Below are positions 10,142-40,257 of a stretch of 64,000 bases of DNA, in pieces. The stretch is from Wenjunlia tyrosinilytica (GTDB lineage Bacteria > Actinomycetota > Actinomycetes > Streptomycetales > Streptomycetaceae): assembly GCF_014646055.1 (NCBI RefSeq), contig NZ_BMMS01000020.1, positions 294 to 64,293 of the forward strand, given 5' to 3'. Each line of letters opens with the position of its first letter. Positions within the stretch are counted from its first letter, which is position 1. Both the position numbers and the translations under genes were made by a program. The notes under the pieces are model-generated. The model was not told the DNA's origin and ran no database searches. It worked only from the letters and a program-made list of their open reading frames with translations.

Positions 10142-10166
10142 GGTGTCTCCTCCTGGTGATGACCCG

Positions 10167-20142: not shown

Positions 20143-20967
20143 TCAGGCGACATGGGCAAGGTACCGGCGGCACGCTTCGGCGAGGACCTCGTGGCCGGCA
20201 CGCTGCCACAACCGCGCGTTGAAGATCTCCACTTCTGTGAGCCCGCTGTAGCCGCTGCGCTCCACTTCGCGTCGCAGTGCCCCGAGGTCGATGACACCAT
20301 CGCCCATCATCCCGCGACCGGTCAGCACGCCGGCGGGCAGCGGCGTCACCCAGTCGCAGACCTGGAATCCGGCGATCCGCCCGTCGAGCAGCGCGAGTTC
20401 ATCGACGAGCTCGGGGTCCCACCAGACGTGGTAGGCGTCGACGAGCACCCCCACCTGCTCGGGGGGGAACCGCTCGGCGAGCCGCCGGGCCTGGCGCAGC
20501 GTGGAGACCACGCTACGGTCCGAGCAGTACATCGGGTGCATCGGCTCGATGGCGAGAACCACACCGTGGTCACCCGCGAACGGCGCCAGCTCCGCGATGG
20601 CGTCGGCGACCATGCCGCGCGCCCCCGCGAGGTCCCGGCTGCCCGACGGCAGCCCTCCGCAGACCAGGACCAGGGTCCGGGCACCCAGCAGGGCCGCCTC
20701 CTCGACCGCCCGCCGGTTGTCGTCGATACGTTCCTGGCGGGTGGCGGCGTCCGCGGCCGTGAAGAAGCCGCCCCGGCACAGGCTCGTCACCTCCAGCCCC
20801 GCCGAGCGCACAAGGTGTGCGACGCGGTCGATCCCCGCCTCCCGCACGGGTTCGCGCCACAGCCCCACGCCACCGAGCCCGCCGCGCCCGGCGGCGTCGA
20901 TGAGTTCGGGAAGCGGCCAGTGCTTGGCCGTCTGGGAATTGAAGGAGAGGCGGCTCAGATCGCTCAT
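20143..20967 (-). CDS. sugar phosphate isomerase/epimerase (xylose-isomerase-like TIM barrel)
   Basis: A 274-residue AP-endonuclease-2/xylose-isomerase-like TIM barrel. Metal-ligand candidates are Glu in LAIEPMHPMY, Asp and His in LVDAYHVWWDPEL and Glu in LTEVEIFNARLW. Such proteins isomerise, epimerise or dehydrate sugars and inosose-like compounds. The ATG overlaps the stop of the DUF993 gene by four bases, so both are made together. Exact substrate unknown. Confidence 0.88.
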   Translation of the reverse strand: MSDLSRLSFNSQTAKHWPLPELIDAAGRGGLGGVGLWREPVREAGIDRVAHLVRSAGLEVTSLCRGGFFTAADAATRQERIDDNRRAVEEAALLGARTLVLVCGGLPSGSRDLAGARGMVADAIAELAPFAGDHGVVLAIEPMHPMYCSDRSVVSTLRQARRLAERFPPEQVGVLVDAYHVWWDPELVDELALLDGRIAGFQVCDWVTPLPAGVLTGRGMMGDGVIDLGALRREVERSGYSGLTEVEIFNARLWQRAGHEVLAEACRRYLAHVA

Positions 20968-23145: not shown

Positions 23146-23604
23146 ATGGAGTCGGCGGCCTTGGCACCTGTACCGAACGGCCTGTACACGATCGCCCGTC
23201 CTGGCGAGCAGCTTCTCACCCTGGAAGGCGGGTCGGCAGAGCCCAAGACACCAGCGCTGCTGCTCCCACCCACCGGCAGCCCGGGTGAACAGGAGTGGTC
23301 GCTGGAGGGACTCACCAACGGCAACTGCACGATCCGCAACCTCAAGAGCGGTACCTACCTGGGCTTCGACGGCGATCCCGAGGTGAACAAGCCGGTCGGC
23401 GGATTCACCGAGCCCTGCGAATGGGCGCTCTACCAGAGCTCGCAGCCTCGTACCTTCCACCTCGTCGTCCCCGGAGGCCCCGTCGACGGCGAGGAACTGG
23501 CCGTAGACCTCAGCCTGTTGCGGATCTTCCCGCCCCGCATCGCCCTGAGGCCGCTCGACGTCGCCAATGCCCGCCAGGCGTGGATGTTCCAGTTCGTGGA
23601 GTAG
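23146..23604 (+). CDS. I66-like beta-trefoil protein (putative serine protease inhibitor)
   Basis: A 152-residue protein with three internally similar segments, as expected of a beta-trefoil: GLYTIARPGEQLLTLEG, NCTIRNLKSGTYLGFDGDP and TFHLVVPGGPVDG...IALRPLD. QEWSLEGL, PCEWALYQ and QAWMFQFVE give the W-x-F/Q trefoil repeats. The pattern resembles the I66 (cospin-type) protease inhibitors of fungi and some Streptomyces proteins. There is no signal peptide from this ATG. The ribosome site is weak, so the start is uncertain. It could instead be a ricin-type lectin domain. Confidence 0.6.
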   Translation: MESAALAPVPNGLYTIARPGEQLLTLEGGSAEPKTPALLLPPTGSPGEQEWSLEGLTNGNCTIRNLKSGTYLGFDGDPEVNKPVGGFTEPCEWALYQSSQPRTFHLVVPGGPVDGEELAVDLSLLRIFPPRIALRPLDVANARQAWMFQFVE

Positions 23605-23789
23605 CAGTCCGGAGCTCGGCGCCCCGGGAAAGCCGACGTCGGCCGGGCGGCACCGCCCGGCCCCGCGGCAACGACTGCCGGGCGCCGGCCTCCTACTACC
23701 GACGCAAGGCCGGTGTTTCCCTGGCCACCGCGGTGGCGGCACCCGCCCTTCGAGTCCGACGTCCCGGTGCGGACCGCCGCGCTTCACGC
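23605..23789. other. non-coding gap before the IS fragments
   Basis: No gene recognised between the trefoil stop and the transposase fragment. Confidence 0.3.
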
Positions 23790-24130
23790 CCGGATGCATC
23801 TGGCCTGTGACGGTCTGGGCCGCCCGCTCGCTCTGGTGCTCACGGGCGGCAACACCACCGACTGCGCCCAGTTCACCGCTGTGATGGAGGGGATACGGGC
23901 ACCCCGCCTCGGGCCGGGACGGCCGCGGGTGCGGCCCGCTCACGTCATCGGCGACAAGGGCTTCAGCTCCAAGGCCATCCGCACCTGGCTGAGGCACCGG
24001 AACATCCCGCACACCGTCCCGGAGCGGGCCGACCAGGGCCGCAACCGTCTCCGGCGCGGCAGCCGGGGCGGCCGCCCGCCAGCCTTCGACCGCGAGGTCC
24101 ACAAGCAGCGCAACGTCGTGGAACGCAGCG
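23790..24130 (+). pseudogene. IS5-family transposase, C-terminal fragment
   Basis: Reads MHLACDGLGRPLALVLTGGN, later VIGDKGFSSKAIRTWLRHRN, then VERADQGRNR and AFDREVHKQRNVVER. This is the middle and C-terminal part of a DDE transposase of the IS5 family common in Streptomyces. The first catalytic Asp region is missing, while the DK motif (second Asp) and the final YK/RNVVER region are partly present. It stops matching just after NVVER, where a piece of another element begins. Confidence 0.75.
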
Positions 24131-24205
24131 TGCTGAAGGTCGAGTACGTCCACCGGCCTGTCTTCCGCACCCGCACCGAGGCCCGCATCAAGATCGCCAC
24201 GCGGA
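24131..24205 (+). pseudogene. IS3-type integrase scrap fused to the IS5 fragment
   Basis: Immediately after NVVER the same frame reads LKVEYVHRPVFRTRTEARIK, which matches the C-terminal region of IS3-family OrfB (LK.E...R..F.T..EA...I). The in-frame junction is a chimera formed by nested insertion and deletion. Confidence 0.5.
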
Positions 24206-24692
24206 GGGTGAGTGCTTCTGCGTTCCGGGCGAGGCCGGTGAGGTGGACGGTGCCGGGCTGGGCGGTGGAGGCGGCGGTGGTGTCGGCGGTTGCCAGGGCT
24301 GCGGCCAGGTGCGGTTGAGCGGTGGCGGTGTGCAGTCGGCGGGCGATGTGCGCGGTGGCGGCTTGTGGTGTCGTCGGGCGGTGGAGGCCCGGGTCGGTGG
24401 CGGTGGGGGCGGTGCAGCGGCAGCGGGGTTCGCTCCAGCCGAACCTGCTCAAGGCAGCCAGGGCGGGCACGGTGACCGCCCGGCCCGGGCTGGGTGGGTG
24501 GGCGGGCGGCCTTTTTCTGGTCGCCGGTGATGACCTGTCGGCGGGCAGGAGCGCGGTGGCTTGAGCGAGGCGGTGGTCCACCCCGGCAAGGGCCCGCTGC
24601 AGGAGCGGGGGCACGGTGGTGCGGTGGCACACCGGGTTCAGGCGTATCCCGGTGCGCTCGCGCCGAGTCGGCTCATCGTGACGTTGATCCAT
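24205..24692 (-). pseudogene. unknown minus-strand gene, 3' end cut off by IS fragments
   Basis: An ATG at 24692 has an excellent AGGAGG six bases upstream and opens MDQRHDEPTRRERTGIRLN. The roughly 160 residues that follow are rich in Ala, Arg, Thr and Pro, with no domain I recognise; one stretch reads ALAGVDHRLAQATALLPAD. The reading frame runs without a stop into the antisense of the IS3/IS5 scraps, so the natural end is lost. I propose a real gene truncated at about 24205 by the mobile element. Confidence 0.4.
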
Positions 24693-24888
24693 TGAACCTC
24701 CTGCGGGGGAGATCCGTACCTTGGGGGTGGGACGCGTGGGGATCATGCGACAGGAGTGGTAATTCCCCCCGTTCCGGAGTGTCCGAGCCAGCGCGTAGGA
24801 CGAACACCGTACTTGCGGCTCTGCCGTGGGCGTTGCCCCTGGCCGACCGCCCACCAGCCAGCCCCTTCGCCCACTGGAGGTCAGTGAG

Positions 24889-25872
24889 TTGAGCCACCGA
24901 CGTGTCACCAAGAAGACCGGCGCCATCGCCGCGGCCGCAGCGGCCGCGGTCGCCGCCGCGGCGATCATCCTGCCCGCTGCCAGCGCGAGTCCGGATACGA
25001 CTTCGACAGCGAGACCGGCCGCGTCCGGCCCCGCTTTGAAGGCGAAGGCCACCGCTGCCCTGTCCAACAAGATCAGTGCCCAGGGCGCCTTCCTCGTCGA
25101 CGGCGCCGGGGGAAAGCCGCTGTGGAGCAAAGCCGCGGACACCCAGCGTTCCGTGGCCAGCACAACGAAGATCATGACAGCTGTCGTGGTGCTGGAGACT
25201 TCCGGTGTGGATCTCAACCGCCAGGTCAACGTCAAACAGGAGTACCGCGACCATGTCACCGAGAACGGGGCCAGCACGGCGGATCTGAGGACCGGCGACA
25301 CGCTCACTGTGCGTCAGCTTCTGCACGCCCTGCTGCTGCCGTCGGGCTGCGATGCCGCGGCCGCGCTCGCCGATTCGTTCGGCACCGGCGACACCATCGG
25401 CGCTCGTACAAAGTCGTTCATCGACGCGATGAACGCCAAGGCTGCTTCGCTGGGCCTGACGAAGACCACCTACGACTCCTTCGACGGCCTCTCCCCCGGG
25501 TCCCTTTCCACGCCGCGCGACCTGGCCACGCTCGCCCGGCACGCCATGGCGGACGCCACCTTCCGCGACATCGTCAAGCAGGTGAGCACCAAACAGGAGG
25601 CCACCAACGGCCGCACCTACACCTGGTTCAACACCAACCAGCTTCTCGGCTCGTATCCTGGAGCCATCGGCATCAAGACCGGCACCAGTACCCCCGCAGG
25701 TCCCTGCCTGGTCTTCGCCGCCACGCGTGAGGGCCGCACTGTCATCGGAGTTGTGCTCAACGACCCCAACCGCTTCGTCTCCGCGGCCACCCTGCTGGAC
25801 TCGGCCTTCAAGTCCGACACCGCGGTCACGATGAGGCTGCGTCAGCTGCCGCCGGGGGCCCAGAGCGACTGA
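24889..25872 (+). CDS. secreted D-alanyl-D-alanine carboxypeptidase (peptidase S11)
   Basis: From the TTG at 24889 (GGAGG 8 bases before) the protein has 327 residues. A positively charged start is followed by an Ala-rich helix ending in SASPDT, a signal peptide. The penicillin-binding motifs are complete: SxxK is Ser91-T-T-Lys94, the second motif is SGC (Ser152-Gly-Cys154) in place of SGN, and KTG is Lys263-Thr-Gly265. It trims the terminal D-Ala from peptidoglycan outside the membrane. The SGC variant occurs in several actinobacterial S11 proteins. It stands alone, with IS debris to its left. Confidence 0.9.
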   Translation: MSHRRVTKKTGAIAAAAAAAVAAAAIILPAASASPDTTSTARPAASGPALKAKATAALSNKISAQGAFLVDGAGGKPLWSKAADTQRSVASTTKIMTAVVVLETSGVDLNRQVNVKQEYRDHVTENGASTADLRTGDTLTVRQLLHALLLPSGCDAAAALADSFGTGDTIGARTKSFIDAMNAKAASLGLTKTTYDSFDGLSPGSLSTPRDLATLARHAMADATFRDIVKQVSTKQEATNGRTYTWFNTNQLLGSYPGAIGIKTGTSTPAGPCLVFAATREGRTVIGVVLNDPNRFVSAATLLDSAFKSDTAVTMRLRQLPPGAQSD

Positions 25873-26287: not shown

Positions 26288-26591
26288 GCCATGCCTGCAC
26301 ACCCCACGAGATCCGCCATGACCCGCGCTCCCCCTGCGAGGCAGTACGGGATGGGACGGCAGTGGTGCCACGTCCGGTTGCCCCACCAGTGCGGCTCGTC
26401 GAACGGGGCACGACGGGCCCAGGACCCATTCACCCTGTCTCGCCCTGGTCTGTCCTCCTGTGCCGCCGACGCAGGCGGACGGGCCTGCCGGCTACCGCGC
26501 CTCCTCGCATTCCGCCCAGAGCCCGGCGGCCACACCGATACGCCTGCGGATGACAGCCTCCAGTGCATCCGGCAGTCTAGTGAACTCAGTT

Positions 26592-26606
26592 GTCAATGCC
26601 ATAGAC
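26592..26606. promoter_or_regulatory. TetR-type operator (tartrate dehydrogenase operon)
   Basis: GTCAATGCCATAGAC, a 15-base near-palindrome, lies 34 bases before the GTG of the tartrate dehydrogenase gene. Its half-sites (GTCAATG / CATnGAC) match the palindrome at 30634 beside the TetR gene. This suggests that the same repressor controls both operons. Confidence 0.55.
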
Positions 26607-26639
26607 TATCCCTCTGAATCCTTGAGGGAAGGAGTCCAT

Positions 26640-27704
26640 GTGCGCACCTATCGGATCGCGGCCGTCCCAGGGGACGGCATCGGGCAGGAGACGGTGCCCG
26701 CCGCCGTGCGCGTACTCGATGCCCTTGCCGGGCTGCACGGCTTCCGGCTGGAGTGGACGATGCACCCGTGGGGGTGCGCGTACCTCGCGCGGACCGGGAC
26801 GATGATGCCCGCCGACGGGCTCGAGAGCCTCGCCGGGGCCGACGCGATTCTCCTCGGAGCCGTCGGCGCGCCCGGAGTTCCCGACCACGAGTCACTGTGG
26901 GGCCTACTCATACCCATCCGGCGCCATTTCGACCAGTTCGTCTCGTTGCGTCCCGTGCGCTCGCTGGCCGGTGTCGAAGGACCGCTGCGCGACGGGCGAC
27001 CGTTCGACCTCGTGGTGGTGCGGGAGAACACCGAAGGGGAGTACAGCGAGATCGGCGGGCGACTCTACCGCGGACGACCGCAGGAGATGGCTGTGCAGGA
27101 GGCCGTGTTCACACGCCTCGGGGTCGAGCGGGTGGCCCGCTACGCGTTCGAGCTGGCCGCCAAGCGTTCCGGCCGTGTGGCGTCGGCGACGAAATCGAAC
27201 GGGATCGTCCACACCATGCCGTTCTGGGACGAGATCCTGTCCGAGGTGGCCGCCGACTACCCCGATGTCGAGCTGACGCCCTATCACGTCGACGCCCTCG
27301 CCGCGCACCTGGTCCTCGATCCGGCCCGGTTCGACGTGATCGTCGCCTCCAACCTCTTCGGCGACATCCTCAGCGACCTGACCGCCGCCCTCGCCGGCAG
27401 CATCGGGATCGCCCCATGCGGCAACATCGACCCCTCCCGGCAGCACCCCTCGATGTTCGAGCCCATCCACGGCTCGGCACCGGACATCGCCGGTACGGGC
27501 ACGGCGAACCCGATCGGCCAGATCTGGTCCTCCTCCCTGATGCTCGACCACCTCGGCGAGCGGGAAGCCGCCGCCCGGCTCACCGCCGCGATCGGCGAGG
27601 TCGTGCGTTCCGGCTCGCTCACCCCCGACCTGGGCGGGAGCCTGTCCACGGCCCAGGTCTGCGACGCCCTGATCAGCGCCCTGACCAAGGACACCGCGTT
27701 GTGA
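26640..27704 (+). CDS. tartrate dehydrogenase / D-malate dehydrogenase (beta-decarboxylating family)
   Basis: A 354-residue isocitrate/isopropylmalate-dehydrogenase-family enzyme. VPGDGIGQETVPAAVRVLD opens the fold. VVRENTEGEYSEIGGRLYRG is characteristic of the tartrate/D-malate branch. TKSNGIVHTMPFWDEIL supplies the catalytic Lys, and YHVDALAAHLVLDP, FGDILSDL and EPIHGSAPDIAGTGTANP complete the metal and NAD sites. It starts at GTG with AAGGAG upstream. It oxidises tartrate, D-malate or a related 2-hydroxy acid with NAD. It is the first gene of a coupled operon whose next gene starts within its stop codon. Confidence 0.9.
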   Translation: MRTYRIAAVPGDGIGQETVPAAVRVLDALAGLHGFRLEWTMHPWGCAYLARTGTMMPADGLESLAGADAILLGAVGAPGVPDHESLWGLLIPIRRHFDQFVSLRPVRSLAGVEGPLRDGRPFDLVVVRENTEGEYSEIGGRLYRGRPQEMAVQEAVFTRLGVERVARYAFELAAKRSGRVASATKSNGIVHTMPFWDEILSEVAADYPDVELTPYHVDALAAHLVLDPARFDVIVASNLFGDILSDLTAALAGSIGIAPCGNIDPSRQHPSMFEPIHGSAPDIAGTGTANPIGQIWSSSLMLDHLGEREAAARLTAAIGEVVRSGSLTPDLGGSLSTAQVCDALISALTKDTAL

Positions 27705-28633
27705 ACGCGCTGCTTCCGGACTTCACGGACGCGACCCGCCGGTGCGGTGGCGTACGCATCCACGCCCAGGTCTCGGGTGACGGTCCGCCCGTGCTGCTCC
27801 TGCACGGGTATCCCCAGACCCTCGCCATGTGGCACCGCGTCGCGCCCGAGCTGGCCAGGGACCACACGGTCGTGCTCGCCGACCTGCGCGGCTACGGCGA
27901 CAGCGGCAAGCCGGACGACGACCCCTCCCACGAGCAGTACGCCAAGCGCACCATGGCCGCCGACCAGGCCGCCCTCATGCGGTCGCTCGGATTCGACCGA
28001 TTCGCCGTCGCCGGGCACGACAGGGGCGGGCGGGTCGCCCACCGCATGGCCCTTGACGTCCCCGAGCACGTACGGGCCGTCGCCGTGCTGGACATCGTGC
28101 CGACGCTGCACATGTTGGGGAACGTCGACCGGGCCATGGCCTCGGCCTACTTCCACTGGTTCTTCCTCTCCCTCGACTCCGGCCTGCCCGAACAGCTGAT
28201 CCTCGCCGACCCTCGCGCGTGGCTGCGCAGCCGGTTCGAGGGGCGCCACGCCGGCGGGCTCCCCACCGACCCGCGTGCCATGGCCGAGTACGAGCGCTGC
28301 TTCACCGACGCGGCCGCGGTGCGCGCGTCATGTGCCGACTACCGGGCGGCCGCCGGTATCGACCTGGAGCACGACGCGTACGACCGCGACCTCGGGCGCG
28401 TGGTCGAGGCGCCGCTCCTGGCGATATGGGGCACGCACAGCTTCGTCGGCCGCCATTTCGACGTGGCCGCGGTGTGGAAGGCGTATGCGCGGCACGTCAC
28501 CGCGGTCGCCGTGCCCGCGGACCACTACCTGGCGGAGGAGGCGCCGGGGGAAGTGGCACGCGCGCTGGCCTCGTTCTTCCGCAATCGCGACCAGGATCCC
28601 GTTCGGCACCTCGACGCGGAGGGCACGCGGTGA
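27701..28633 (+). CDS. alpha/beta hydrolase, fluoroacetate dehalogenase-like
   Basis: A 310-residue alpha/beta hydrolase whose active site matches fluoroacetate dehalogenases (FAc-DEX / RPA1163 type). The nucleophile is Asp107 in GHDRGGRVAHR, with the two carboxylate-binding arginines Arg108 and Arg111. The acid is Asp131 in AVLDIVPT and the base is His275 in ADHYLAEEAPGE. His152-Trp153 in YFHWFF and Tyr214 in CADYRAAAGIDLEHD match the halide pocket. The oxyanion motif is HGYPQ. It probably hydrolyses a 2-halo acid, possibly fluoroacetate, or a close ester or epoxide analogue. GTG overlaps the previous stop (GTGA), and its own stop overlaps the M20 start the same way. Cytosolic. Confidence 0.85.
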   Translation: MNALLPDFTDATRRCGGVRIHAQVSGDGPPVLLLHGYPQTLAMWHRVAPELARDHTVVLADLRGYGDSGKPDDDPSHEQYAKRTMAADQAALMRSLGFDRFAVAGHDRGGRVAHRMALDVPEHVRAVAVLDIVPTLHMLGNVDRAMASAYFHWFFLSLDSGLPEQLILADPRAWLRSRFEGRHAGGLPTDPRAMAEYERCFTDAAAVRASCADYRAAAGIDLEHDAYDRDLGRVVEAPLLAIWGTHSFVGRHFDVAAVWKAYARHVTAVAVPADHYLAEEAPGEVARALASFFRNRDQDPVRHLDAEGTR

Positions 28634-29775
28634 GCCGCGCAGGCGGCTTCGACCTCGGGCGGGCCGTGGAGCGCCTGCGGCACCTGGTCGGCATCGAGTC
28701 GCCCTCCGGTCACGCGTGCGGTCTCGGCGGCTGCTACGAGCTGCTGACGGAGTGGTCCCGGGACCTGCTCGGCCCGCCGCAGTGTGTCGTCGAGGGCGGC
28801 GTACCCCATCTGTACTGGGAGGAGGCACCCGCGGCACGCGGCGTGCCCGGCGTCCTGCTGCTCGGCCACGCCGACACGGTGTGGCCTCTCGGGACGCTGG
28901 AGGGCTGGCCGTTCACGACCGAGGGTGAACGGGTCTCGGGGCCGGGCGTGTTCGACATGAAGTCGGGCCTCGTGCTTGCCCTGGAGGCGCTGGCCCTCGC
29001 AGGCGACACCCGCCATGTCCGGATGCTCGTCACCGGAGACGAGGAGTGCGGCTCGCTGACCTCGCGCGGCCTGGTGGAGGAGGCGGCACGTGGCTGCGCT
29101 GCCGTCCTGGTCCTGGAGCCGAGCATGGACGGCGCGGTGAAGACGGCCCGCAAGGGCGGGGCCATCTACCGCCTGGACATCCGCGGCCACGCGGCCCATG
29201 CCGGTCTGGAGCCGGAAAAGGGGGTGAACGCGCTGGTCGAGCTTGCCCACCAGGTGCTGGCCATCACCGCGCTCGCCGACGCGGATCTCGGCACTTCGGT
29301 CACGCCGACCGTCGGCCGAGCCGGTACCACCACCAACACCGTCCCCGCGGACGCGCACATCAACGTGGACGTCCGTGCCTGGCACCGCGACGAGTTGGAA
29401 CGGGTGGATGCGAATCTACGAGTGCTCACCTCGCGGGTGCCCGGGGCCGCCGTGGAACTGTCCGGAGGGATCAACCGACTGCCACTGGAGCGTTCCATGT
29501 CGGCCGGGCTGCTCGCGGTCGCCAGGCAGCTGGCCGAGGCCGGCGGCCTTGGGGAGGTCGGCGAGGCGGCGGTCGGCGGGGCGTCGGACGGGAACTTCAC
29601 GGCGGCCCTGGGCATCCCGACCCTGGACGGGCTGGGGCCGCGCGGCGCGGGTGCGCACGCGCGGCACGAATGGGCGGACACGGGCTCGTTCGAGGAACGG
29701 GCACTGCTGGTCGCCGGGCTGGTCAGGTCGCTCGGCCCGCAGGGTGCGAACGGCACGGACGAGCAGGCCCGGTGA
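28630..29775 (+). CDS. M20 metallopeptidase, carboxypeptidase G2-like
   Basis: A 381-residue M20A-type hydrolase. The two-zinc site can be traced: His and Asp in LLGHADTVWPLG, the bridging Asp in GPGVFDMKSG, the Glu pair in TGDEECGS, and a C-terminal His in GAGAHARHEW. GHAAHAGLEPEKGVNALVEL is the dimerisation-lid segment of CPG2-like enzymes. It removes a C-terminal amino acid, often Glu, from N-acylated substrates. It is translationally coupled to the dehalogenase-like gene and converges on the TetR gene 33 bases further on. No signal peptide, so it acts inside on imported compounds. Confidence 0.88.
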   Translation: MSRAGGFDLGRAVERLRHLVGIESPSGHACGLGGCYELLTEWSRDLLGPPQCVVEGGVPHLYWEEAPAARGVPGVLLLGHADTVWPLGTLEGWPFTTEGERVSGPGVFDMKSGLVLALEALALAGDTRHVRMLVTGDEECGSLTSRGLVEEAARGCAAVLVLEPSMDGAVKTARKGGAIYRLDIRGHAAHAGLEPEKGVNALVELAHQVLAITALADADLGTSVTPTVGRAGTTTNTVPADAHINVDVRAWHRDELERVDANLRVLTSRVPGAAVELSGGINRLPLERSMSAGLLAVARQLAEAGGLGEVGEAAVGGASDGNFTAALGIPTLDGLGPRGAGAHARHEWADTGSFEERALLVAGLVRSLGPQGANGTDEQAR

Positions 29776-29808: not shown

Positions 29809-30555
29809 TCAGGTGCCCTGTCCCCCTTCCCCGTCGGCCTTCCGCGCGCGGACCTCGATCGCGTCGAGGAACAGTTCGATCGCCGTGTCGAAGACCCTCG
29901 GATCGCCGATGTCGGTGAGCTGGTCGCTCATCGACGCGATCCGCGGGTACTCCTCCGGCGCGAGCCGGCGGTACTCCAGGTGCCAGGCCAGCGCGTCGCG
30001 TTCCCGCGTCTCGGCCTCAAGCGCATGGAGCCCGGCCTCCATGCTCGACAGCGACCGGATGACATTGCCGAAGACGCGCAGGAATATCGCAGCGTCGTGC
30101 GGCGGGAGCCCGGCGCGCAGGAACGCGTCCAGGGCGAACTCGACGTTGGTGAACTCGGTTGGACGGCGGGTCGTGCGTGCCGCCATCTGGAGTGCGAACT
30201 GCGGGTAGCGCAGGTAGTGCTCGTGGATGTGGTACGCGAGGGAGCGCAGGTCGTCGCGCCAGGAGTCCGTGGCTTCCAGCTGCCCGCCGTAGGAGCGCGA
30301 GCGCAGGTTGTCGATCAGTTCCAGGACCAGCTCGTCCTTGTCGCGGAAGTGCCGGTAGATGGAAGTCGGATGGGCCGTCAGCTCCTTGCCGAGCGCCTGG
30401 AAGGTGAGGCCGTCGAGGCCGTCACGGGCGGCGATCGTCTCGGCCGCGTCCAGGATGACCTGCCTGCTGAGGCTGTCCCTTGCCCGGCGCGTGCGCCCCG
30501 GCCGGTCTTGCTTGGACGCGGTGCGGGACTTCCGGTCCCGGCTCGGGGTGCTCAT
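29809..30555 (-). CDS. TetR-family transcriptional regulator
   Basis: A 248-residue TetR regulator. The N-terminus is basic, then ILDAAETIAARDGLDGLTFQ and TSIYRHFRDKDELVLELIDN form the helix-turn-helix. The C-terminal domain is ligand-binding. The start at 30555 has AAGGA upstream. It is divergent from the ABC importer operon, and two overlapping palindromes lie over the facing promoter. It probably represses the importer, itself and the tartrate dehydrogenase operon until the imported compound binds. Confidence 0.9.
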   Translation of the reverse strand: MSTPSRDRKSRTASKQDRPGRTRRARDSLSRQVILDAAETIAARDGLDGLTFQALGKELTAHPTSIYRHFRDKDELVLELIDNLRSRSYGGQLEATDSWRDDLRSLAYHIHEHYLRYPQFALQMAARTTRRPTEFTNVEFALDAFLRAGLPPHDAAIFLRVFGNVIRSLSSMEAGLHALEAETRERDALAWHLEYRRLAPEEYPRIASMSDQLTDIGDPRVFDTAIELFLDAIEVRARKADGEGGQGT

Positions 30556-30633
30556 GGGTGTCCTTCCTGGACGCCGTGCGGACGGTCGCGCGAGGGCTGG
30601 CCCGACCCTGCCCGAACAGCGGCCCCAACGCAA

Positions 30634-30660
30634 GTCAACGACATTGACAATTGGATTGTC
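30634..30660. promoter_or_regulatory. two overlapping TetR-type operators
   Basis: GTCAACGACATTGAC (30634-30648) and GACAATTGGATTGTC (30646-30660) are 15-base palindromes sharing three bases. The first matches the site at 26592 upstream of the tartrate dehydrogenase gene. They cover the -35 box and spacer of the promoter at 30644, so bound TetR would block it. Confidence 0.6.
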
Positions 30661-30744: not shown

Positions 30745-32466
30745 GTGATGAGCAAGCCATGGAACGAGCGCACGGGAGCGTCCCGCAGATCCGGGCGGCA
30801 GTCGGCCGCAGTCGCCTGCGCGGTCCTCGCGGTCCTCGCGGCAGGATGCACGGCCGGCGGCGGGACCGCCGGCAACGGGGGCAGCCCGGCCCCGGACGCG
30901 CCGGTCAGGCAGGGCGGCAGCCTCGTCATCGGAGCCGAGCAGGAGCCGGACTGCACGGACTGGATCGCCACCTGCGCGGGCTCCATCTGGGGCACCTACA
31001 TCATGCAGACGCCCACGATTCCCAAGGTGTTCGATGTCCGGCGCAAAGGTCGCGACTGGACCCCGGTCGCCTCCGAACTGATGGCGTCCGAGCCGACCGT
31101 CACCGTCAACGGGAAGCATCAGAAGATCACGTACCGGATGTCACCCGACGCCCGCTGGTCGGACGGCACCCCCATCACGTCGGCCGACCTGAAGTACACC
31201 GCGCTGCAACTGCGCGACGGCAAAGACATCTTCGACAAGACCGGCTACGACCGGATCACCTCCGTCGCGACACCCGACGACAAGACGGCGGTCGTGACCC
31301 TGAAGTCGCCGTTCGCGGGCTGGAAGACCCTGTTCAGCTCCGGCTACGGGGTACTGCCGAAGCACATCCTGGACGGCAAGGACCGGCACGCGCTGATGAA
31401 GGACGGCTACACCTTCAGCGGCGGCCCCTGGAAGATCCAGTCGTGGAAGAAGGGGACGTCCGTCACCCTGGTCCCCAACAAGCGCTACTGGGGCAAGCAA
31501 CCCAAACTGGACAAGGTGACCTTCCAGTTCACCTCCGACACCGCGTCCGCGTTCCAGGCGTTCAAGAGCGGCCAGCTCGACGCCCTCTACCCCACACCGC
31601 AGCTCGATGTGATAGAGCAGATCAAGAGCGGCCTCGGCACCGCCCGCTCCCGGGTCGATGCCCAGACCGGCAACCTTGAGGCGCTGTGGATGAACAACGC
31701 CAAGTTCCCGTTCGACTCGGCGCCCGTCCGGAAGGCGGTCGCCCACGCGATCGACCGCGCCGCGATCATCAAGAAGCTCTACGGCCCGCTCGGTGTCGAC
31801 CAGCCCGCGCAGAGCTTCCTGTCGCCGATCGTCTCCGGCTACGCCGGGTCCGACTTCTCCGCCTACACCCGTGACCTCGATCGGGTCGCCGAGTTGATGA
31901 CCGGGGCGGGCTGGGCGAAGGGAGAAGGCGGGCTCTGGGCCAAGGACGGCCGCAAGGCGCGGTTCACGATCGTCTCCCTGGCAGGCAACAAGCGCCGCGA
32001 GCTCACCGAGCAGATACTCCAGACCCAGCTGAAGGAGGCCGGGTTCGAGATGAGGATCAAGAACACAAGCCCGGCCACGCTCTTCGGCAAGCAGGCCCCC
32101 GCCGGCGACTTCGAGCTGGGCCTGTGGACGCTCGTCGACCAATTCCCGGACCCGGCGCTGAGCAACACCTTCAGCTCCACCTCGATCCCGAGCGCGGCGA
32201 ACGGCCAGTCCGGTATCAACTTCATCCGTGCCCGAGTCGACGGCCTCGACACACCGCTCGAGCGCGTGGACACCGAACTCGGCGAGGCCGCGCGAAAGGA
32301 CGCCTCCCGCCAGGCCGAGAAGATCATCGCCGACAACGTGCCCTCGCTCCCCCTCGGCGCCGTTCCCAACGTTCTGCTGTGGAGCCGGCGCGTCGGCGGC
32401 CCCATCAGCATCAACCCCGCAGAGGGGCCCTGGTGGAACCTCCACGAGTGGGGCCTGGCCAAGTGA
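30745..32466 (+). CDS. dipeptide/oligopeptide-type ABC transporter substrate-binding lipoprotein
   Basis: A 573-residue family 5 extracellular binding protein. A signal peptide ends in the lipobox LAAGC; counting from the ATG at 30748 the lipid-bearing residue is Cys34. GTG at 30745 is an equally possible start, with GGAAGG upstream. WSDGTPITSADLKYTALQLRD, FSGGPWKIQSWKKGTSVTLV and APVRKAVAHAIDRAAIIKKL-type segments are standard for DppA/OppA. It captures peptide-like or other hydrophilic ligands outside the cell for the permeases downstream. The C-terminal lobe ends SLPLGAVPNVLLWSRRVGG. Confidence 0.92.
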   Translation: MMSKPWNERTGASRRSGRQSAAVACAVLAVLAAGCTAGGGTAGNGGSPAPDAPVRQGGSLVIGAEQEPDCTDWIATCAGSIWGTYIMQTPTIPKVFDVRRKGRDWTPVASELMASEPTVTVNGKHQKITYRMSPDARWSDGTPITSADLKYTALQLRDGKDIFDKTGYDRITSVATPDDKTAVVTLKSPFAGWKTLFSSGYGVLPKHILDGKDRHALMKDGYTFSGGPWKIQSWKKGTSVTLVPNKRYWGKQPKLDKVTFQFTSDTASAFQAFKSGQLDALYPTPQLDVIEQIKSGLGTARSRVDAQTGNLEALWMNNAKFPFDSAPVRKAVAHAIDRAAIIKKLYGPLGVDQPAQSFLSPIVSGYAGSDFSAYTRDLDRVAELMTGAGWAKGEGGLWAKDGRKARFTIVSLAGNKRRELTEQILQTQLKEAGFEMRIKNTSPATLFGKQAPAGDFELGLWTLVDQFPDPALSNTFSSTSIPSAANGQSGINFIRARVDGLDTPLERVDTELGEAARKDASRQAEKIIADNVPSLPLGAVPNVLLWSRRVGGPISINPAEGPWWNLHEWGLAK

Positions 32467-32525: not shown

Positions 32526-33494
32526 ATGCTCAGATTCGTCATACGGCGGCTGGTGTACTCGGTGCCGGTGGTGGCCGCGGCCTCGCTCATCCTCTTCTGG
32601 GGGGTTCGCTCGACGTTCGACCCACTCGCCAAGCTGCGGCAGGGCCACGACGCGGGAGCGTTGCGGCGCGAGGTGGCCAGGCTGGGCCTCGACCGGCCGG
32701 TCCTGGAGCAGTACGTGCTGTGGATGAAGGCGTTCGCCACCGGAGGCTGGGGCACCAGCACCCGAACCGGCGGCGACGTCAGGGCGATGATCGGGTCGGC
32801 GCTCGCGACCACCGTGCAACTGGTCTTCTGGGGTGTCCTGCTCGCGACGGTCCTCGCCCTCGGCATCGGCGTGTACTCGGCCGTGCGGCAGTACTCCGCG
32901 GGGGACTACGTGCTCACCGCCCTGTCCTACCTCGGGATCGCGATGCCTGCGTTCTGGTGCGGGCTCATCCTGATCCAACTGCTCGCGGTGTGGCCGAAGG
33001 AGCGGTTCGGGCTGGCCGAGCCACCGCTCTACTTCGTCGGCCTGCACTCTCCGGGGCGAAGCGGCTTCGACATGGACTACCTGCGGCATCTGGCCCTGCC
33101 TGTGATCACGTTGACGATCAGCCTGATCGCGAGCTGGTCGCGGTTCAGCCGGGCGTCCATGTTGGAGGCACTGTCCAGCGACTACGTGCGCACGGCCCGG
33201 GCCAAGGGCGTGCCGTCACGGCAGATCTTCGTCCGGCACGCCCTGCGCAACTCGCTGGCGTCGTTTGTGACCGTCGTCGCGCTCGACTCGGCGATCCTCT
33301 TCGGGGGCCTGGTGGTGACGGAGCAGATCTACGCGATCCCCGGGATGGGGCGGCTGTTCCTTGCCTCGATGCTGGCGGGCGACGTCTTCGTGCTCATCCC
33401 GTGGATGCTGATCGTGGCGCTCGCCACCGTCCTGTTCAATCTTGCGGCGGACCTGGGGTACGCGCTGCTCGACCCAAGGGTGGTGCTGAGGTGA
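32526..33494 (+). CDS. dipeptide-type ABC permease (DppB)
   Basis: A 322-residue inner-membrane permease, DppB type, with a leading FVIRRLVYSVPVVAAASLIL helix and about six membrane segments. It has the EAA-loop region DYVRTARAKGVPSRQIFVRH, which docks on the ATPases. It follows the binding protein by 59 bases and overlaps the next permease by four bases. Confidence 0.92.
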   Translation: MLRFVIRRLVYSVPVVAAASLILFWGVRSTFDPLAKLRQGHDAGALRREVARLGLDRPVLEQYVLWMKAFATGGWGTSTRTGGDVRAMIGSALATTVQLVFWGVLLATVLALGIGVYSAVRQYSAGDYVLTALSYLGIAMPAFWCGLILIQLLAVWPKERFGLAEPPLYFVGLHSPGRSGFDMDYLRHLALPVITLTISLIASWSRFSRASMLEALSSDYVRTARAKGVPSRQIFVRHALRNSLASFVTVVALDSAILFGGLVVTEQIYAIPGMGRLFLASMLAGDVFVLIPWMLIVALATVLFNLAADLGYALLDPRVVLR

Positions 33495-34393
33495 GCGTCC
33501 AACGAGCCCCCGTCGGCCCGGTGGCCGAGACCGCCTCCGCGCGGCGGGACTTGAGCGGGCGACGGATCGTCGCCAAGCGGTTCCTGCGGCACCGACTCGC
33601 CGCCGCGGGCACTGTGGCGCTGCTCGCACTGGCCACGTGCTGCTTCGGCGCGAGCTGGATCGCCCCGTACCCGCGCAACGCCCAGGATCTGCTGACCGGT
33701 GCCCGGCAACCGTCCATCGCGCACTGGCTGGGCACCGACGACCTGGGACGCGACTACCTCAGTGAGGTGCTGTACGCGGGTCAGGTCTCCCTGTCCATCG
33801 GGCTGTGCGTGGCCGTCCTGTCGACCGCGCTCGGCACGCTCGTCGGGGCCATCGCCGGTTTCACAGGCGGCTGGGCCGAGGAGGTGATCATGCGGGTGAC
33901 CGACCTGTTCCTGATCGTGCCTGGCATCGCCGTGCTCGCCTTGGCACTGGAAGGTCTTGGCCCCTCCCCCGTCACGATCGTGCTGGTCCTGACCGGGCTG
34001 GGCTGGACCGTGATCGCCCGGGTGGTGCGCTCGCAGGTGATCAGCCTGCGGGAGAAGGAGTTCGTGGAGGCGGCCCGGGTCATCGGAGCGTCGGGGGTAC
34101 GGATCATCACCAGGCACCTCCTGCCGAACCTCGTCGGCGTGATCGCCGTCAACATGTCCCTGGCCGTCGCCGGGGCGATCATCCTGGAGTCCACGCTCAG
34201 TTTCCTCGGGTTCGGCATCCAGCCGCCCCAGTCAAGCTGGGGCAACCTGCTCACCCAGGCCGCGAGCCTCGTCGGCACTCCCAAGGCGTACCTGCTGTAC
34301 GCGCCGGGCGCGGCGATCCTGCTCACGGTCCTGGCCGTGAACTTCGTGGGCGACGGGTTGCGGGACGCCTTCGACCCGCAGGGGAGGAAGTGA
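33491..34393 (+). CDS. dipeptide-type ABC permease (DppC)
   Basis: A 300-residue DppC-type permease. It has the N-terminal membrane helix and [20 protein letters not shown], the usual family entry motif. The EAA loop is [20 protein letters not shown], and the end is [19 protein letters not shown] then [18 protein letters not shown]. The GTG start lies inside the previous stop (GTGA). Its stop overlaps the ATPase ATG as TGATG. Confidence 0.92.
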
Positions 34394-35421
34394 TGGAGGC
34401 GGTCTCCCACACCGAGGTGGTCTCCCACACCGCGAGCCCACCGGAACTGCTCCGTGTCCGCGACCTGACGGTCGAGTACCGGACCGACTCGGGGACGGCG
34501 GTCGCCGTCGAGGGCCTGTCGTTCGACGTGGCCGAGGGACAGACGCTGGGCATTGTCGGAGAGTCGGGCTCGGGCAAGAGCGCCGCGTCCATGGCGATCA
34601 TGGGGCTCCTGCCGCGTTCCGCCCGGGTGACCGGCTCGATCCGTTTCCGCGGGCGGGAACTGCTCAGCCTGGCCGACAGCGAGTTGCGGGAGATACGGGG
34701 ACGGCGGATCGCGGTCATCTTCCAGGACGCGCTCGCCGCGCTGAACCCGATGATGACGGTCGGCGCGCAGATCGCCGAGGCAGTGCGCGTGCACGACCCG
34801 TCGACGAGCAGGGCCTCCCTGGTCGAGCGGGCCACCGAACTGCTCGACGTCGTCGGCATCCCCTCGCCCGCCACCCGCCTGGGCCAGTACCCGCACGAAT
34901 TCTCCGGCGGGATGCGGCAGCGGGTGATGATCGCCATGGGCATCGCCAACGAGCCGGACATCCTCATCGCCGACGAGCCGACGACCGCCCTCGACGTGAC
35001 CGTCCAGGCGCAGGTGCTCGACGTCATCCGGCGGGTGCAGGAGCGTACCCGCACCTCGGTCATGCTCATCACCCACGACCTGGGTGTCGTCGCGGGTCTC
35101 GCCGATCGGGTCATGGTCATGTACGCGGGGCGCAAGGTCGAGGAGGGACCGGTCGAACCCGTCTTCTACGAGCCGTCGCACCCGTACACACGAGGGCTCC
35201 TCGCGGCGCTTCCCCGGATCGACCGGCGCACCGCCCGGCTCACGCAGATCCCGGGCCGGCCTCCGCAGCCCGGCGAGCGGCCCGCCGGATGCCCCTTCCA
35301 GCCCCGCTGCCCCCACGCGGAACCCGCGGTGTGCGGCGACGCCGGCACTGTGCCCGTCGCCGTCGCGGACTCGCACTCCACGGCCTGTGTGCGAGTGCAC
35401 GAAATCGGAGGGGACCGATGA
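34393..35421 (+). CDS. dipeptide-type ABC ATPase (DppD)
   Basis: A 342-residue ABC ATPase. Walker A is [11 protein letters not shown], signature [17 protein letters not shown], Walker [13 protein letters not shown], switch His in [11 protein letters not shown]. The C-terminal Cys-rich peptide-transporter tail [16 protein letters not shown] is the kind that binds an iron-sulfur cluster in some DppD homologues. It pairs with the DppF-type ATPase that starts four bases before its end. Confidence 0.93.
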
Positions 35422-36431
35422 AGGCTCCAGTGGTGAACGCGCAGGCGGTGGACGGGCCCGCGGTGGAGGCCAGCGGGCTGGTGGCCGAGTACCGGATCCG
35501 CCGCCGCCCCGGGCAGGGCCGGGCGACCGTCCAGGCCGTCTCGGGGGTCGACTTCTCCATCGGCCGCGGACGCACACTCGGCCTCGTTGGGGAGACCGGC
35601 TGCGGCAAGAGCACGCTCGGTCGGTGCCTGGTGGGGCTGGTGACCCCGGTCGCGGGGCGGGTGACGCTCGACGGCACCGATGCCGCGGCCGCCGGACGCG
35701 GAGCACGGACCAGGCTGCGACGCCAGGTCCAGCTCGTCTTCCAGGACCCGTACTCGTCGCTGAACCCGCGCATGAGCGTCGGCGCGATCCTGGCCGAACC
35801 GCTGCGTATCCATGGGCTGCACTCGGGGCGCCGCGACACACGGGTCCGGGAGCTGCTGGAGCTGGTCGGCCTCGACCCCGACCACACGGGGCGGTTCCCG
35901 CACCAGTTCTCCGGCGGGCAGCGGCAGCGCATCGGCATCGCCCGGGCGCTCGCGGTCGAACCGCGGATCCTGGTACTGGACGAGCCGGTGAGCGCCCTGG
36001 ACGTGAGCGTGCAGGCGGGCGTGGTCAACCTGCTCGAGGACCTTCAGGAGGAGTTCGCGCTCACCTACCTGTTCATCGCGCACGACCTTTCCGTCGTCCG
36101 GCAGATCAGCGACGACGTGGCGGTGATGTACCTCGGCCGGATCGTCGAGCACGCCCCGGCGGACCGCCTGTACACATTCCCGTACCACCCGTACACCCAG
36201 GCCCTGCTGTCGGCGGTACCGATCCCCGACCCGCGGGCGGAGCGTGCCCGCAAGCGGATCGTGCTGCTCGGGGACGCGCCCAGCCCGCTCGTCCCGCCGT
36301 CGGGGTGCCGTTTCCGCACCCGCTGCTGGAAAGCACAGCAGATCTGCGCCCTCGAGGCGCCCGCGCTCGCAGACATGGGCGGCGGGCACCTGGCGGCGTG
36401 CCACTTCCCGGAGACCCGGGTGGTGACGTGA
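35418..36431 (+). CDS. dipeptide-type ABC ATPase (DppF)
   Basis: A 337-residue ABC ATPase. Walker A is [11 protein letters not shown], signature [17 protein letters not shown], Walker [13 protein letters not shown], switch His in [10 protein letters not shown]. The tail [15 protein letters not shown] again has the oligopeptide-transporter cysteines. The ATG overlaps the DppD stop. It completes the five-gene importer, and the S9 peptidase follows after 37 bases. Confidence 0.93.
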
Positions 36432-36468: not shown

Positions 36469-38415
36469 ATGCCTGCAACCGCTCCGACGACACCCCAAGC
36501 GGCTCCGGCGTGGCACCGGTACTTCGCGGCCCGCCAGTGCATATCGATGCGGCGAGGCCGGGGAGCGGAAGAGGAACTCGAACTGATGGTCCTCGACGGC
36601 CCCGACGGGGAGACCCTGGCCGTCTGGGACACCACCGAGGCCGCCCCGGTCCCGCTGCCCGGGGACTTCGGGGACCCCAAGGAGGCCGTGCTGACCGCGG
36701 ACGGCGCGTGCGTGCTCGGACTCCGTGACGACAACGGCTCCGAGATGGGCCATGTGTGGGCGGCACCGGCCGGAGCAGGCGCGGGGGCCGTGGACCTCAC
36801 CCCCGGACTGCCGCCGTACACCCTGCGTGGAATCGACGTGGGCCGCTACGGCTCCCGTGCTGTCATCACCGCGGTCGCCGACGACGGCTTCACCCTCTGG
36901 CTGGTCGACAGTGGAGGCAATGAGCAGCCGAGGCGCCTGTTCACCTCCCGCAACGAGGCGTGGAACGGCCTGATCTCCGCCACAGGGGAACTGGCCTGCA
37001 TCGACACCACGGAACACAACCCCGGGTTCAGACGCTTCGCCGTGACCGTCGTCGACACCGGGACCGGCCGGGTAGTGGCCTCGCTCTCGGACGGGCCCGA
37101 GGCACCGGTACGCGCCGTGCGGTTCTCGCCCGTAGCCGGGGACGGCCGCCTGCTGGCCGCCACCGAGCGGACCGGGTACGCCCGCCCCTGCGTGTGGAAC
37201 CCCGCCGACGGCACCCGTATCGACGCCGACGCGCCCGGCCTGGACGGGGACCTCGTACCGCTGGACTGGTCCGACGACGCGTCACGGGTCCTGCTGGTGC
37301 ACGTCGACGCGGGAGTCCACCAGGTCATGGAGCTCGACCTCGCCACGGGCGGGCTGTCCCGAATCGAGCACCCTCCGGGCGCGTTCTTCGAACCCGACGT
37401 CGCCGCCGCGCACCTGTACAGCTGGGCGTCCCACTACGCCGCCGACGGCCGGATCCGGCTGCTGCACCAGCGCTTCGACCAACCCCTGACGGTCCTGCAC
37501 GTTGACCAACGCACCGGCGAGGCCCGCCCCGGGTGGCAGCCGCGAGACGTGGGACCGGGCACAGCGGTGGTCTCCCGGACGGTGCGCTCGGCCGACGGCA
37601 CCGCGGTGCAGTTGTGGGTCGGCCGGCCACCCGGGGCCGATCGGCCGACACCGCTCGTCCTGTACCTGCACGGCGGCCCTCAGATGGCCACCGTCGACCG
37701 CTACAACCCCGAAGCGCAGGCCTGGCTCGCCTCCGGGACGGCGTACGCGGCGCTGAACTACCGCGGCTCGGTCACGTTCGGCCGCGCCTTCCGGGAGGGC
37801 TTCTTCGGAACGGTCGGCGCCAGGGAGGTCGAGGACATCGAGGCGGCGGTCGGATGGCTGGTCGCGGAAGGAATCGCCGACAAGGAGAACGTCTTCGTCA
37901 CCGGACCGTCCTACGGGGGATTCCTGTCCCTGCTCGCCGTCGGGCGCCTCCCCGACCTGTTCGCAGGGGCGTTCGCGTTCGTACCGATGGCCGACTGGGT
38001 GTCCGCGCACGAGGACATGAACCCCGCGCTGCGCACCGCGTGCCGGTCCTTCTTCCGCGCCTCCCTTGAGGAGGACCCCGGCAGGTATGTGCGGGCATCG
38101 CCGATCTCGTACGTCGGGCAGGTGCGCTCGCCGGTGTGGATCAGGCACGCCACCCATGACACCCGCACCCCACCGTCCCAGGCCCACTCCTACGCCCTGG
38201 CCCTCGAACGGGCCGGCGGGGACGTCGTCCTGGACTGGTTCAGCGGGGGCCACGAGACAAGCAGCAGGGACATGGCGATCGGTGACCAGCAGCGCATGAT
38301 GGACCTCGTGCAATCCGCGTTGCGCGGCGAGCGCTGGTCCCGCAGCCGGGTCCGGCCGCCGGACCCGGACCCCGACTCGGCACCCGACCGGGACCCTGCC
38401 TGCCGAGACCACTAG
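36469..38415 (+). CDS. S9 family peptidase (acylaminoacyl-peptidase/prolyl-oligopeptidase type)
   Basis: A 648-residue S9C-like serine peptidase: an N-terminal beta-propeller (about residues 1-390) and a C-terminal alpha/beta hydrolase. The triad is Ser481 in TGPSYGGFLS, Asp564 in HATHDTRTPPSQ and His595 in SGGHETSS. HGGPQMATVDRYNPEAQ supplies the oxyanion region. No signal peptide, so it cleaves imported peptides or acyl-peptides in the cytosol. ATG 36469 has GGAG about 9 bases before; GTG 36466 is possible. It is the last gene of the importer operon and the natural partner for a peptide uptake system. The C-terminus ends in a Pro/Asp-rich tail. Confidence 0.92.
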   Translation: MPATAPTTPQAAPAWHRYFAARQCISMRRGRGAEEELELMVLDGPDGETLAVWDTTEAAPVPLPGDFGDPKEAVLTADGACVLGLRDDNGSEMGHVWAAPAGAGAGAVDLTPGLPPYTLRGIDVGRYGSRAVITAVADDGFTLWLVDSGGNEQPRRLFTSRNEAWNGLISATGELACIDTTEHNPGFRRFAVTVVDTGTGRVVASLSDGPEAPVRAVRFSPVAGDGRLLAATERTGYARPCVWNPADGTRIDADAPGLDGDLVPLDWSDDASRVLLVHVDAGVHQVMELDLATGGLSRIEHPPGAFFEPDVAAAHLYSWASHYAADGRIRLLHQRFDQPLTVLHVDQRTGEARPGWQPRDVGPGTAVVSRTVRSADGTAVQLWVGRPPGADRPTPLVLYLHGGPQMATVDRYNPEAQAWLASGTAYAALNYRGSVTFGRAFREGFFGTVGAREVEDIEAAVGWLVAEGIADKENVFVTGPSYGGFLSLLAVGRLPDLFAGAFAFVPMADWVSAHEDMNPALRTACRSFFRASLEEDPGRYVRASPISYVGQVRSPVWIRHATHDTRTPPSQAHSYALALERAGGDVVLDWFSGGHETSSRDMAIGDQQRMMDLVQSALRGERWSRSRVRPPDPDPDSAPDRDPACRDH

Positions 38416-40120: not shown

Positions 40121-40257
40121 CTGAGTAATCCTAGCCGTACTTGACATGCATTTGAAGTTAATCAAAAGGCTGTATACCTTCGAGACGAGAGCGCAAGACG
40201 GAACGCACGGCTCGGCCCGACCGGCCTCATCACCCCTCCTCACATGGGAGTACCACC
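40121..40257. promoter_or_regulatory. divergent LysR / IMPase-like promoter region
   Basis: A 137-base divergent gap with an AT-rich core from 40135 to 40180. TTGACA occurs at 40141-40146 and TATACC at 40173-40178, but their spacing (26) does not make one standard promoter. T-N11-A LysR-box candidates are present, and none is decisive. Confidence 0.4.

Follow-up and report, generated by a model that had tools for sequence, protein, structure and literature searches.

In fluoroacetate dehalogenases (FAcDs), two arginines of the DRxxR stretch hold the substrate carboxylate, and an aspartate attacks the alpha-carbon. These enzymes are classified as EC 3.8.1.3 (PMC12955510) and are marked by the motif DRxxRxxxR after the nucleophile, epoxide hydrolases by an aromatic residue after the aspartate and an aromatic X in HGXP (PMC7429986). 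FAcD-like genes are found in many bacteria, although natural organofluorines are rare (PMC13230308). One member of the family resides in the stretch of the Wenjunlia tyrosinilytica genome analyzed here (the window, 64,000 nucleotides; coordinates are positions in this 64-kb window, and L- and G-numbers denote loci and genomes in this analysis). It is encoded at 27701-28633 on the + strand by a frame of 310 aa with a GTG start and no internal stop, next to a gene of the tartrate dehydrogenase type (TtuC). The subfamily to which it belongs is tied to TtuC by gene order, paired palindromes and pocket residues, which leads to a substrate prediction (C4 diacid, epoxysuccinate first). As judged from the sequences, and with a probability of about one half, the genes form an import-and-catabolism cluster, in which a FAcD-type enzyme has been retuned for a C4 dicarboxylate, most likely trans-epoxysuccinate.

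FAcD family membership and pocket residues

The nucleophile, the base and the triad aspartate are all present (D107, H275, D131), the motif after the nucleophile reads D107-R108-G-G-R111-V-A-H-R115, and the His-Trp-Tyr halide cradle is intact (H152, W153, Y214). The frame and all the residues named in the first-pass annotation were found in place, and align with the FA1 dehalogenase: D107/R108/R111/D131 correspond to FA1 D104/R105/R108/D128, and H152/W153/Y214/H275 to FA1 H149/W150/Y212/H271. Sequence matches to FAcD structures in the PDB reach E values of 1.8e-87. The AlphaFold model (predicted local distance difference test score, pLDDT, 94.9) was used in a fold search; each of the 50 PDB entries listed is a FAcD or a close homologue of one (Z 43.8-48.5), among them Alr0039 (Z 48.5), 6muy (47.9), Daro3835 (47.8), RPA1163 (9u9u; 47.8) and D4B (47.5), aligned over 291-295 residues. 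In a tree of 104 rows the protein groups with FAcDs, apart from 5ng7, the outgroup and only epoxide hydrolase included. A distant paralogue in the same genome (L003) sits beside this outgroup. A second FAcD-like stretch of the genome (L002, G000:C42:31225-31596) is 54% identical, covers residues 15-136 only, and is possibly truncated or frameshifted.

A misannotated epoxide hydrolase, considered as a candidate, was rejected, as motif, tree and fold all place the protein with FAcDs. Classical epoxide hydrolases feature an aromatic residue after the nucleophile and no DRxxRxxxR; here Arg108 follows Asp107, and the HGYP motif does have the aromatic X. The family assignment made in the first-pass annotation is borne out, and neither of the findings that would have spoken against it, a place within epoxide hydrolases or the loss of the Trp/His/Tyr cradle, was encountered. 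The ring-opening pair of epoxide hydrolases is Tyr/Tyr, or His/Tyr in Cif-like enzymes (PMC8244358). H152 and Y214 could form such a His/Tyr pair. The fold is that of alpha/beta hydrolases, not that of the haloacid dehalogenase (HAD) superfamily, to which the cis-epoxysuccinate hydrolases CESH[L] belong. By sequence and fold the protein is best regarded as a FAcD family member whose specificity pocket has changed; it should not be called a proven fluoroacetate dehalogenase.

The residue set departs from that of a plain FAcD. The pocket Trp that faces the substrate in most FAcDs (FA1 Trp179, RPA1163 Trp185, H1 Trp180), which the first-pass annotation had missed, is Arg182 here; the column of RPA1163 Lys181 holds Arg178, and the Gly preceding the catalytic His is replaced by Asp274. 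Residues 178 and 182 were equated with RPA1163 Lys181 and Trp185 by numbering (offset +3 at the start and +5 at the end of the structural alignment), not residue by residue. The pocket Trp, replaced here by Arg182, is usual, not universal, in FAcDs: 4nvr has Gln in this column, and the full residue set with Trp at the gate column was found in 40 of the 92 rows of the first alignment. The pocket Trp is a feature of specificity rather than of family. In RPA1163, Trp185 is a pocket residue, and the substrate restricts it (PMC11465415). Smaller residues at this position admit bulkier substrates in RPA1163. In H1, selections on the methylated substrate FP were almost the only ones in which Trp180 persisted, and Trp180Arg, noted as a natural variant, was not recovered (PMC12955510). 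According to the titles of PDB entries, solved RPA1163 variants at Lys181 and Trp185 carry bulky 2-fluoro-3-phenylpropanoic acids.

The first alignment omits duplicates of the window, L004-L008 (other alpha/beta hydrolases), the partial L002, the truncated L059 and doubled fetches. Seventeen of its rows are linked to TtuC. The 49 rows taken as canonical exclude these 17, the entries 9c9f and 4nvr, the epoxide hydrolase, L003, and 22 rows lacking Arg at column 111 (43 of 92 in all). Three columns set the linked rows fully apart from the canonical ones. Column 182 is Arg in 17/17 linked rows vs 0/49 canonical rows (41 Trp, 4 Phe, 2 Tyr, 1 Leu, 1 Gln); column 274, next to the catalytic His, is Asp in 17/17 vs 0/49 (Gly in 46/49); column 178 is Arg in 17/17 vs 0/49 (Lys in 19/49). 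Arg178 and Arg182 are absent from the 22 rows without Arg111, and Asp274 is found in one of them (L067). D4B of Delftia (9c9f), an enzyme named as a fluoroacetate dehalogenase, has Arg at column 182, Ile at 178 and Gly at 274; Arg182 by itself was accordingly discarded as proof of a changed substrate.

Two groups of FAcD-like relatives have lost hallmarks of the family. In the first (L058, L060-L064, L066-L069, L072, L081) Arg111 is replaced by Tyr (Cys or Ala in single rows), and the gate column is gapped; L060 has Gly at the nucleophile position. In the second (L070, L071, L073-L080) Leu (His in one row) replaces Arg111, and Leu the cradle Trp. Both come from the same family as the source organism, and, by their residues, may be mis-named dehalogenases.

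The ten-gene block and its linkage to TtuC

The FAcD-family gene is joined to both neighbours by GTGA overlaps, read in the DNA: at 27701-27704 the stop of the upstream ttuC overlaps the FAcD start, and at 28630-28633 the FAcD stop overlaps the start of a gene encoding an M20 amidase. The overlaps and the nature of the partners, a hydroxy-acid dehydrogenase (TIGR02089) and an amidase similar to carboxypeptidase G2 (CPG2; PF01546, 1cg2), are as the first-pass annotation had them. The three-gene operon proposed there proved too short and was rejected as the whole unit, as the block runs on through a TetR gene into an ATP-binding cassette (ABC) importer and an S9 peptidase. The full unit is made by ten genes (TtuC-FAcD-M20, TetR, solute-binding protein-permeases-ATPases-S9 peptidase), with a putative operator ahead of each of the two operons:

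26590..26608, putative operator 1, palindrome TTGTCAATGCCATAGACTA, just upstream of ttuC; similar palindromes in orthologous loci
26640..27704, + strand, ttuC, tartrate/D-malate-type dehydrogenase (Iso_dh), 354 aa; TIGR02089, PRK08194, PDB 3flk
27701..28633, + strand, FAcD-family hydrolase with R178/R182/D274, 310 aa; alignment, tree, fold
28630..29775, + strand, M20 amidase, carboxypeptidase-G2-like, 381 aa; PF01546/PF07687, PDB 1cg2
29809..30555, - strand, TetR-family regulator, convergent with the first operon and divergent from the second; PF00440 and PF02909
30632..30650, putative operator 2, AAGTCAACGACATTGACAA (reverse complement TTGTCAATGTCGTTGACTT), between tetR and the transporter operon
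30748..32466, + strand, solute-binding protein family 5 (peptide/nickel type); PF00496, 3.9e-64
32526..33494, + strand, ABC permease B (DppB/OppB type); PF00528
33491..34393, + strand, ABC permease C (DppC/OppC type); open frame, block orthologues 66-78%; named from position and sequence reading
34393..35421, + strand, ABC ATPase D; open frame, orthologues in the block; named from position and sequence reading
35418..36431, + strand, ABC ATPase F; open frame, orthologues in the block; named from position and sequence reading
36469..38415, + strand, S9 peptidase, acylamino-acid-releasing-enzyme type; PF00326

TtuC scores 520.4 bits with TIGR02089 (NCBIfam tartrate dehydrogenase; cut-off 470.4) and 520.6 with PRK08194 (cut-off 501), and its best PDB match is the tartrate dehydrogenase/decarboxylase 3flk (2.5e-112). 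The M20 amidase has catalytic and dimerisation domains (PF01546/PF07687), and is closest in the PDB to CPG2 (1cg2, 3.4e-36). Motif residues H80, D109, E138, E139 and E163 are kept in 13/13 orthologues compared; for the sixth, taken here as the second His of AHARH although the first may be the ligand, 9 orthologues have His and 3 Asn or Asp, and one is not matched that far. PDB matches of the S9 protein include an S9 family peptidase (1.4e-25) and acylamino-acid-releasing enzymes (from 1.3e-22); S482 and D565 are kept in 10/10 orthologues, and H596 in all 8 that are matched far enough to include it. The PDB matches of the solute-binding protein include binding proteins of the peptide and nickel types.

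Genes featuring Arg178, Arg182 and Asp274 together were found in 25 rows, six of which are second fetches, leaving 19 distinct genes, the one in the window included. TtuC is encoded within 10 kb of 18 of these, M20 of 14, and the importer of 13. Neither TtuC nor M20 was detected in any of 62 control loci without the three residues (tblastn, 1e-10, in the flanks covered, which measure at least 5 kb on both sides in 36/62 and at least 8 kb in 29/62; four pairs have identical proteins). In a sample from the phylum (L144-L171; four further listed places were not read) 28/28 loci lack Arg182 and Asp274 (two are gapped at 182), and neither TtuC nor M20 was seen in longer stretches round 17 of them (L180-L196). 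In a sample from the order, all the 7 genomes matched at 1e-85 have the three residues: that of the window, G094, G558, G566, G770, and two new ones, G671, in which TtuC lies beyond one LysR gene from the FAcD gene, and G638. Too simple a reading of these data is discouraged by the finding of TtuC, at 1e-95, in 8/28 genomes holding FAcD relatives without the three residues, on the same contig more than 100 kb away in G189 and G1089, and on another contig in six, where nearness in the intact genome is possible (as in G1041, which has short contigs). The presence of TtuC in a genome is not diagnostic; linkage is.

The block is found again in other actinobacteria, in part rearranged. All ten genes are found in the same order in Acrocarpospora pleiomorpha (L011; 66-77% identity), and are also kept in G030 and G020 (same family) and G318 (same class). 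In Nonomuraea (L010) the order is the same as far as the contig goes, which is to a point within the first ATPase gene; A. catenulata (L009) also agrees, but its binding protein is represented by a 157-aa piece only, and S9 was not matched. Other blocks are rearranged: a LysR gene adjoins TtuC in G558 and G566, where TetR was not matched; TtuC, FAcD, S9, ABC, TetR and M20 occur in a different order in G770; in G309, G544 and G355 FAcD-M20, TetR, S9 and ABC genes are present, with TtuC after the last ATPase. A minimal LysR/FAcD/TtuC module resides in G094, G443, G235 and G671, with no M20 or importer in the flanks examined (LysR was confirmed by Pfam in G671, and identified by eye in G094, G443 and G235). 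A 5.2-kb contig of G137 carries an M20 gene that runs off the contig, FAcD, LysR and TtuC. The FAcD/TtuC/M20 arrangement is not due to chance, since structure matches of the FAcD protein are as low as 1.8e-87 and gene order is kept in other genera.

The tree has 104 rows and was drawn without five trait columns; second fetches, L153, L166 and two thirds of L146-L171 were omitted. Genes with the three residues form two clades (10 rows, Shimodaira-Hasegawa-like approximate likelihood ratio test, SH-aLRT, 96; 9 rows, SH-aLRT 97). The sister of the second clade, L095, has Gln182 and no TtuC nearby, nor was TtuC found in its genome at 1e-95. Three changes of the Arg182 state are seen, that of D4B included; among linked genes Arg182 may have arisen once or twice.

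Both putative operators are palindromes of the type T(A/T)GTC-N9-GAC(A/T)(A/T). The 19-base pattern TWGTCAAYGNCRTWGACWW, allowing at most 1 mismatch, occurs in the 8,490,936-base genome at two sites only (26590-26608 and 30632-30650), and the reversed control pattern has no match there. The pattern was partly derived from the two sites, so that their match is by construction, and the result is the absence elsewhere. A relaxed palindrome was found at both corresponding places in L009, L010, L011, L097 and L099, and at one in L091, L092, L096 and L098. The block is probably controlled by the TetR protein, which would bind at the two palindromes.

These data bear on a rival explanation, that the protein is an ordinary FAcD acting on monohaloacetates, for detoxification or use, with glycolate as product, and that its neighbours are a separate catabolic set sharing a promoter. 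In its favour, all catalytic residues are present and D4B has Arg at the same column. It is nonetheless quite unlikely, as the Trp gate and two further columns have changed in step with TtuC linkage, the 4-base overlaps and paired palindromes bind the genes into one unit, and glycolate is not known to be a substrate of the TtuC type.

Upstream of the block are a DUF993 protein (20964-22085, minus strand; a very strong match of 598 bits to a family of unknown function), a small ricin-B-type beta-trefoil protein (23146-23604, PF14200), an S11 D-Ala-D-Ala carboxypeptidase gene (24826-25872) and, between the trefoil and S11 genes, a match to a DDE transposase domain (23713-24318, PF01609). Downstream (39215-41076), a LysR regulator is divergent from a gene of the inositol-monophosphatase family.

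Proposed substrate of the FAcD-type enzyme

TtuC enzymes act on C4 hydroxy-diacids (malate/tartrate type). Tartrate formed from epoxysuccinate and malate formed from halosuccinate are both substrates of this kind, glycolate and lactate, the products of simple haloacids, are not. Since pocket residues are tied to TtuC, a C4 dicarboxylate would explain more than fluoroacetate or chloroacetate; two added arginines on the side of the alpha-substituent, together with a C4-diacid partner enzyme, point to a second carboxylate on the substrate. The substrate, the order of steps, the direction of transport, TetR binding and the role of each arginine are what we infer in the following scheme. An ABC importer of the Opp/Dpp type would take up an N-acylated, peptide-like compound, which the S9 peptidase and the CPG2-like M20 amidase would cut back until the acyl acid is free. 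This acid would be a C4 dicarboxylate in which the carbon beside one carboxylate is electrophilic. Arg108 and Arg111 would hold one carboxylate, as in FAcDs, and the Arg178/Arg182 patch, replacing a Lys/Trp wall, the second. Asp107 would attack the carbon, the leaving oxygen or halide being accommodated in the His152/Trp153/Tyr214 cradle, and His275/Asp131 would hydrolyse the ester intermediate. The resulting hydroxylated C4 diacid (tartrate from epoxysuccinate, malate from halosuccinate) would be what TtuC oxidises or decarboxylates. Together, the genes for the importer, S9 and M20 suggest that in the larger version of the cluster the diacid is supplied as an N-acyl amino acid amide. The order amidase, hydrolase, dehydrogenase put forward in the first-pass annotation is retained in this scheme, and is extended by the importer and the acyl-peptide-type S9 peptidase; its halo-acid substrate is not, as nothing singles it out.

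The main alternative is a variant of that halo-acid route, in which 2-halosuccinate (or halo-malate) would be dehalogenated to malate or tartrate, followed by oxidative decarboxylation by TtuC. In its favour, all 19 members have every catalytic and halide-binding residue of FAcDs, characterised family members are named as dehalogenases, and the TtuC link and second Arg pair suit a diacid. It is rather doubtful, since no widespread natural halosuccinyl peptide is known to us and no halide exporter is found among the ten genes of the block as named. Another electrophilic or ester substrate giving a TtuC substrate, such as an acyl-malate ester or another 2-substituted diacid, is unlikely: the Asp nucleophile and intact cradle would point to alkyl cleavage of C-X or epoxide C-O bonds, not to ester hydrolysis. 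The TtuC link is independent of the leaving group, and the alpha/beta fold is promiscuous, one enzyme being esterase, dehalogenase and deformylase (PMC13230308), both of which suit such a substrate.

Among C4 dicarboxylates, trans-epoxysuccinate, the warhead of E-64-type inhibitors, would fit every gene of the block. E-64 and analogues have the structure trans-epoxysuccinate - L-amino acid - amine, and E-64-type clusters occur in over 40 fungal genera (PMC12568646). A narrower proposal, tentative and made at less than even odds, is that the enzyme is a trans-epoxysuccinate hydrolase of the alpha/beta-hydrolase superfamily, derived from a FAcD through a second-carboxylate site made by Arg178/Arg182/Asp274, and that the cluster consumes or disarms fungal E-64-type inhibitors. 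S9 would remove the amine side, M20 would free epoxysuccinate from the amino acid, the hydrolase would make tartrate, and TtuC would feed tartrate to central metabolism; LysR-FAcD-TtuC modules would use free trans-epoxysuccinate.

Several data weigh against a retuned enzyme in an import-and-catabolism cluster. Arg182 alone seems no bar to haloacetates, as D4B has it, and Asp274 occurs alone in L067, a relative outside the set. That residues 178 and 182 face the pocket is taken from homologues, not from the model. The halide cradle is unchanged in 19/19 genes with the three residues, and suits the departure of a halide no less well than that of an epoxide oxygen. The peptide part of the cluster is optional: in the DNA covered, 6/19 genes lack the importer (in one case, L094, the contig ends), and five of these (L093, L100, L101, L177, L178) also lack M20. 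The palindrome was not found in L136, where LysR is present instead, or in L179. L178 of G638 (9514-10419) is a solitary gene with the three residues, TtuC (60%) being elsewhere in the genome. The association of residues with TtuC amounts to few independent events (two clades, near-duplicates from one genus). Lastly, the specificity of TtuC and the existence of a trans-epoxysuccinate hydrolase activity are taken as background. As to the neighbours of L178, a transketolase-like gene and urease genes were recognized by eye, and another alpha/beta hydrolase (34%) lies about 4 kb away.

Comparison with known systems

The open-access literature, in which few subscription journals are covered, returned no paper joining a FAcD with tartrate dehydrogenase or with genome context, or a haloacetate dehalogenase with tartrate and an operon, and none on structure 9C9F; the words 'trans-epoxysuccinate' and 'tartrate epoxidase' did not occur in the open-access papers matched by a companion term. 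The FAcD family is known; the gene combination and the Arg-type subfamily appear undescribed in this literature. To our knowledge, no gene is known for the 'tartrate epoxidase' or trans-epoxysuccinate hydrolase activity of pseudomonads. If the proposal holds, the subfamily would provide a gene for this activity, could show how bacteria handle a common class of fungal protease inhibitors, and would mark the second occurrence, in an unrelated fold, of the step from dehalogenase to epoxysuccinate hydrolase.

The characterised FAcDs (RPA1163, FA1 FAc-DEX, Daro3835, D4B) share with the window protein the fold, the Asp-His-Asp triad, DRxxRxxxR and the His-Trp-Tyr cradle, at 40-50% identity. They differ in having the pocket Trp where Arg182 is found here (shared only with D4B among the structures compared), and in lacking Arg178 and Asp274. 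Unlike them, the window enzyme shares its locus with TtuC, and most loci of its kind also have the M20, importer and S9 peptidase genes. The best fold match, Alr0039 of Nostoc (3qyj; Z 48.5, 46% identity), keeps the gate Trp. The partner TtuC is in the family of the tartrate dehydrogenase 3flk, which we take to be a TtuC of the Pseudomonas putida type, and whose tartrate/malate chemistry is here joined to a FAcD-type hydrolase. With CPG2 the amidase shares the M20 family and five active-site motif residues, at about 129 bits only. In the cis-epoxysuccinate hydrolases CESH[L] a haloacid-dehalogenase scaffold has likewise been turned to a C4 epoxy-diacid; these enzymes are more than 60% identical to L-2-haloacid dehalogenases, and an Arg protonates the oxirane (PMC10869282). 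Their HAD fold is unrelated to the alpha/beta hydrolase fold of the window protein, of which they are an analogue, not a relative.

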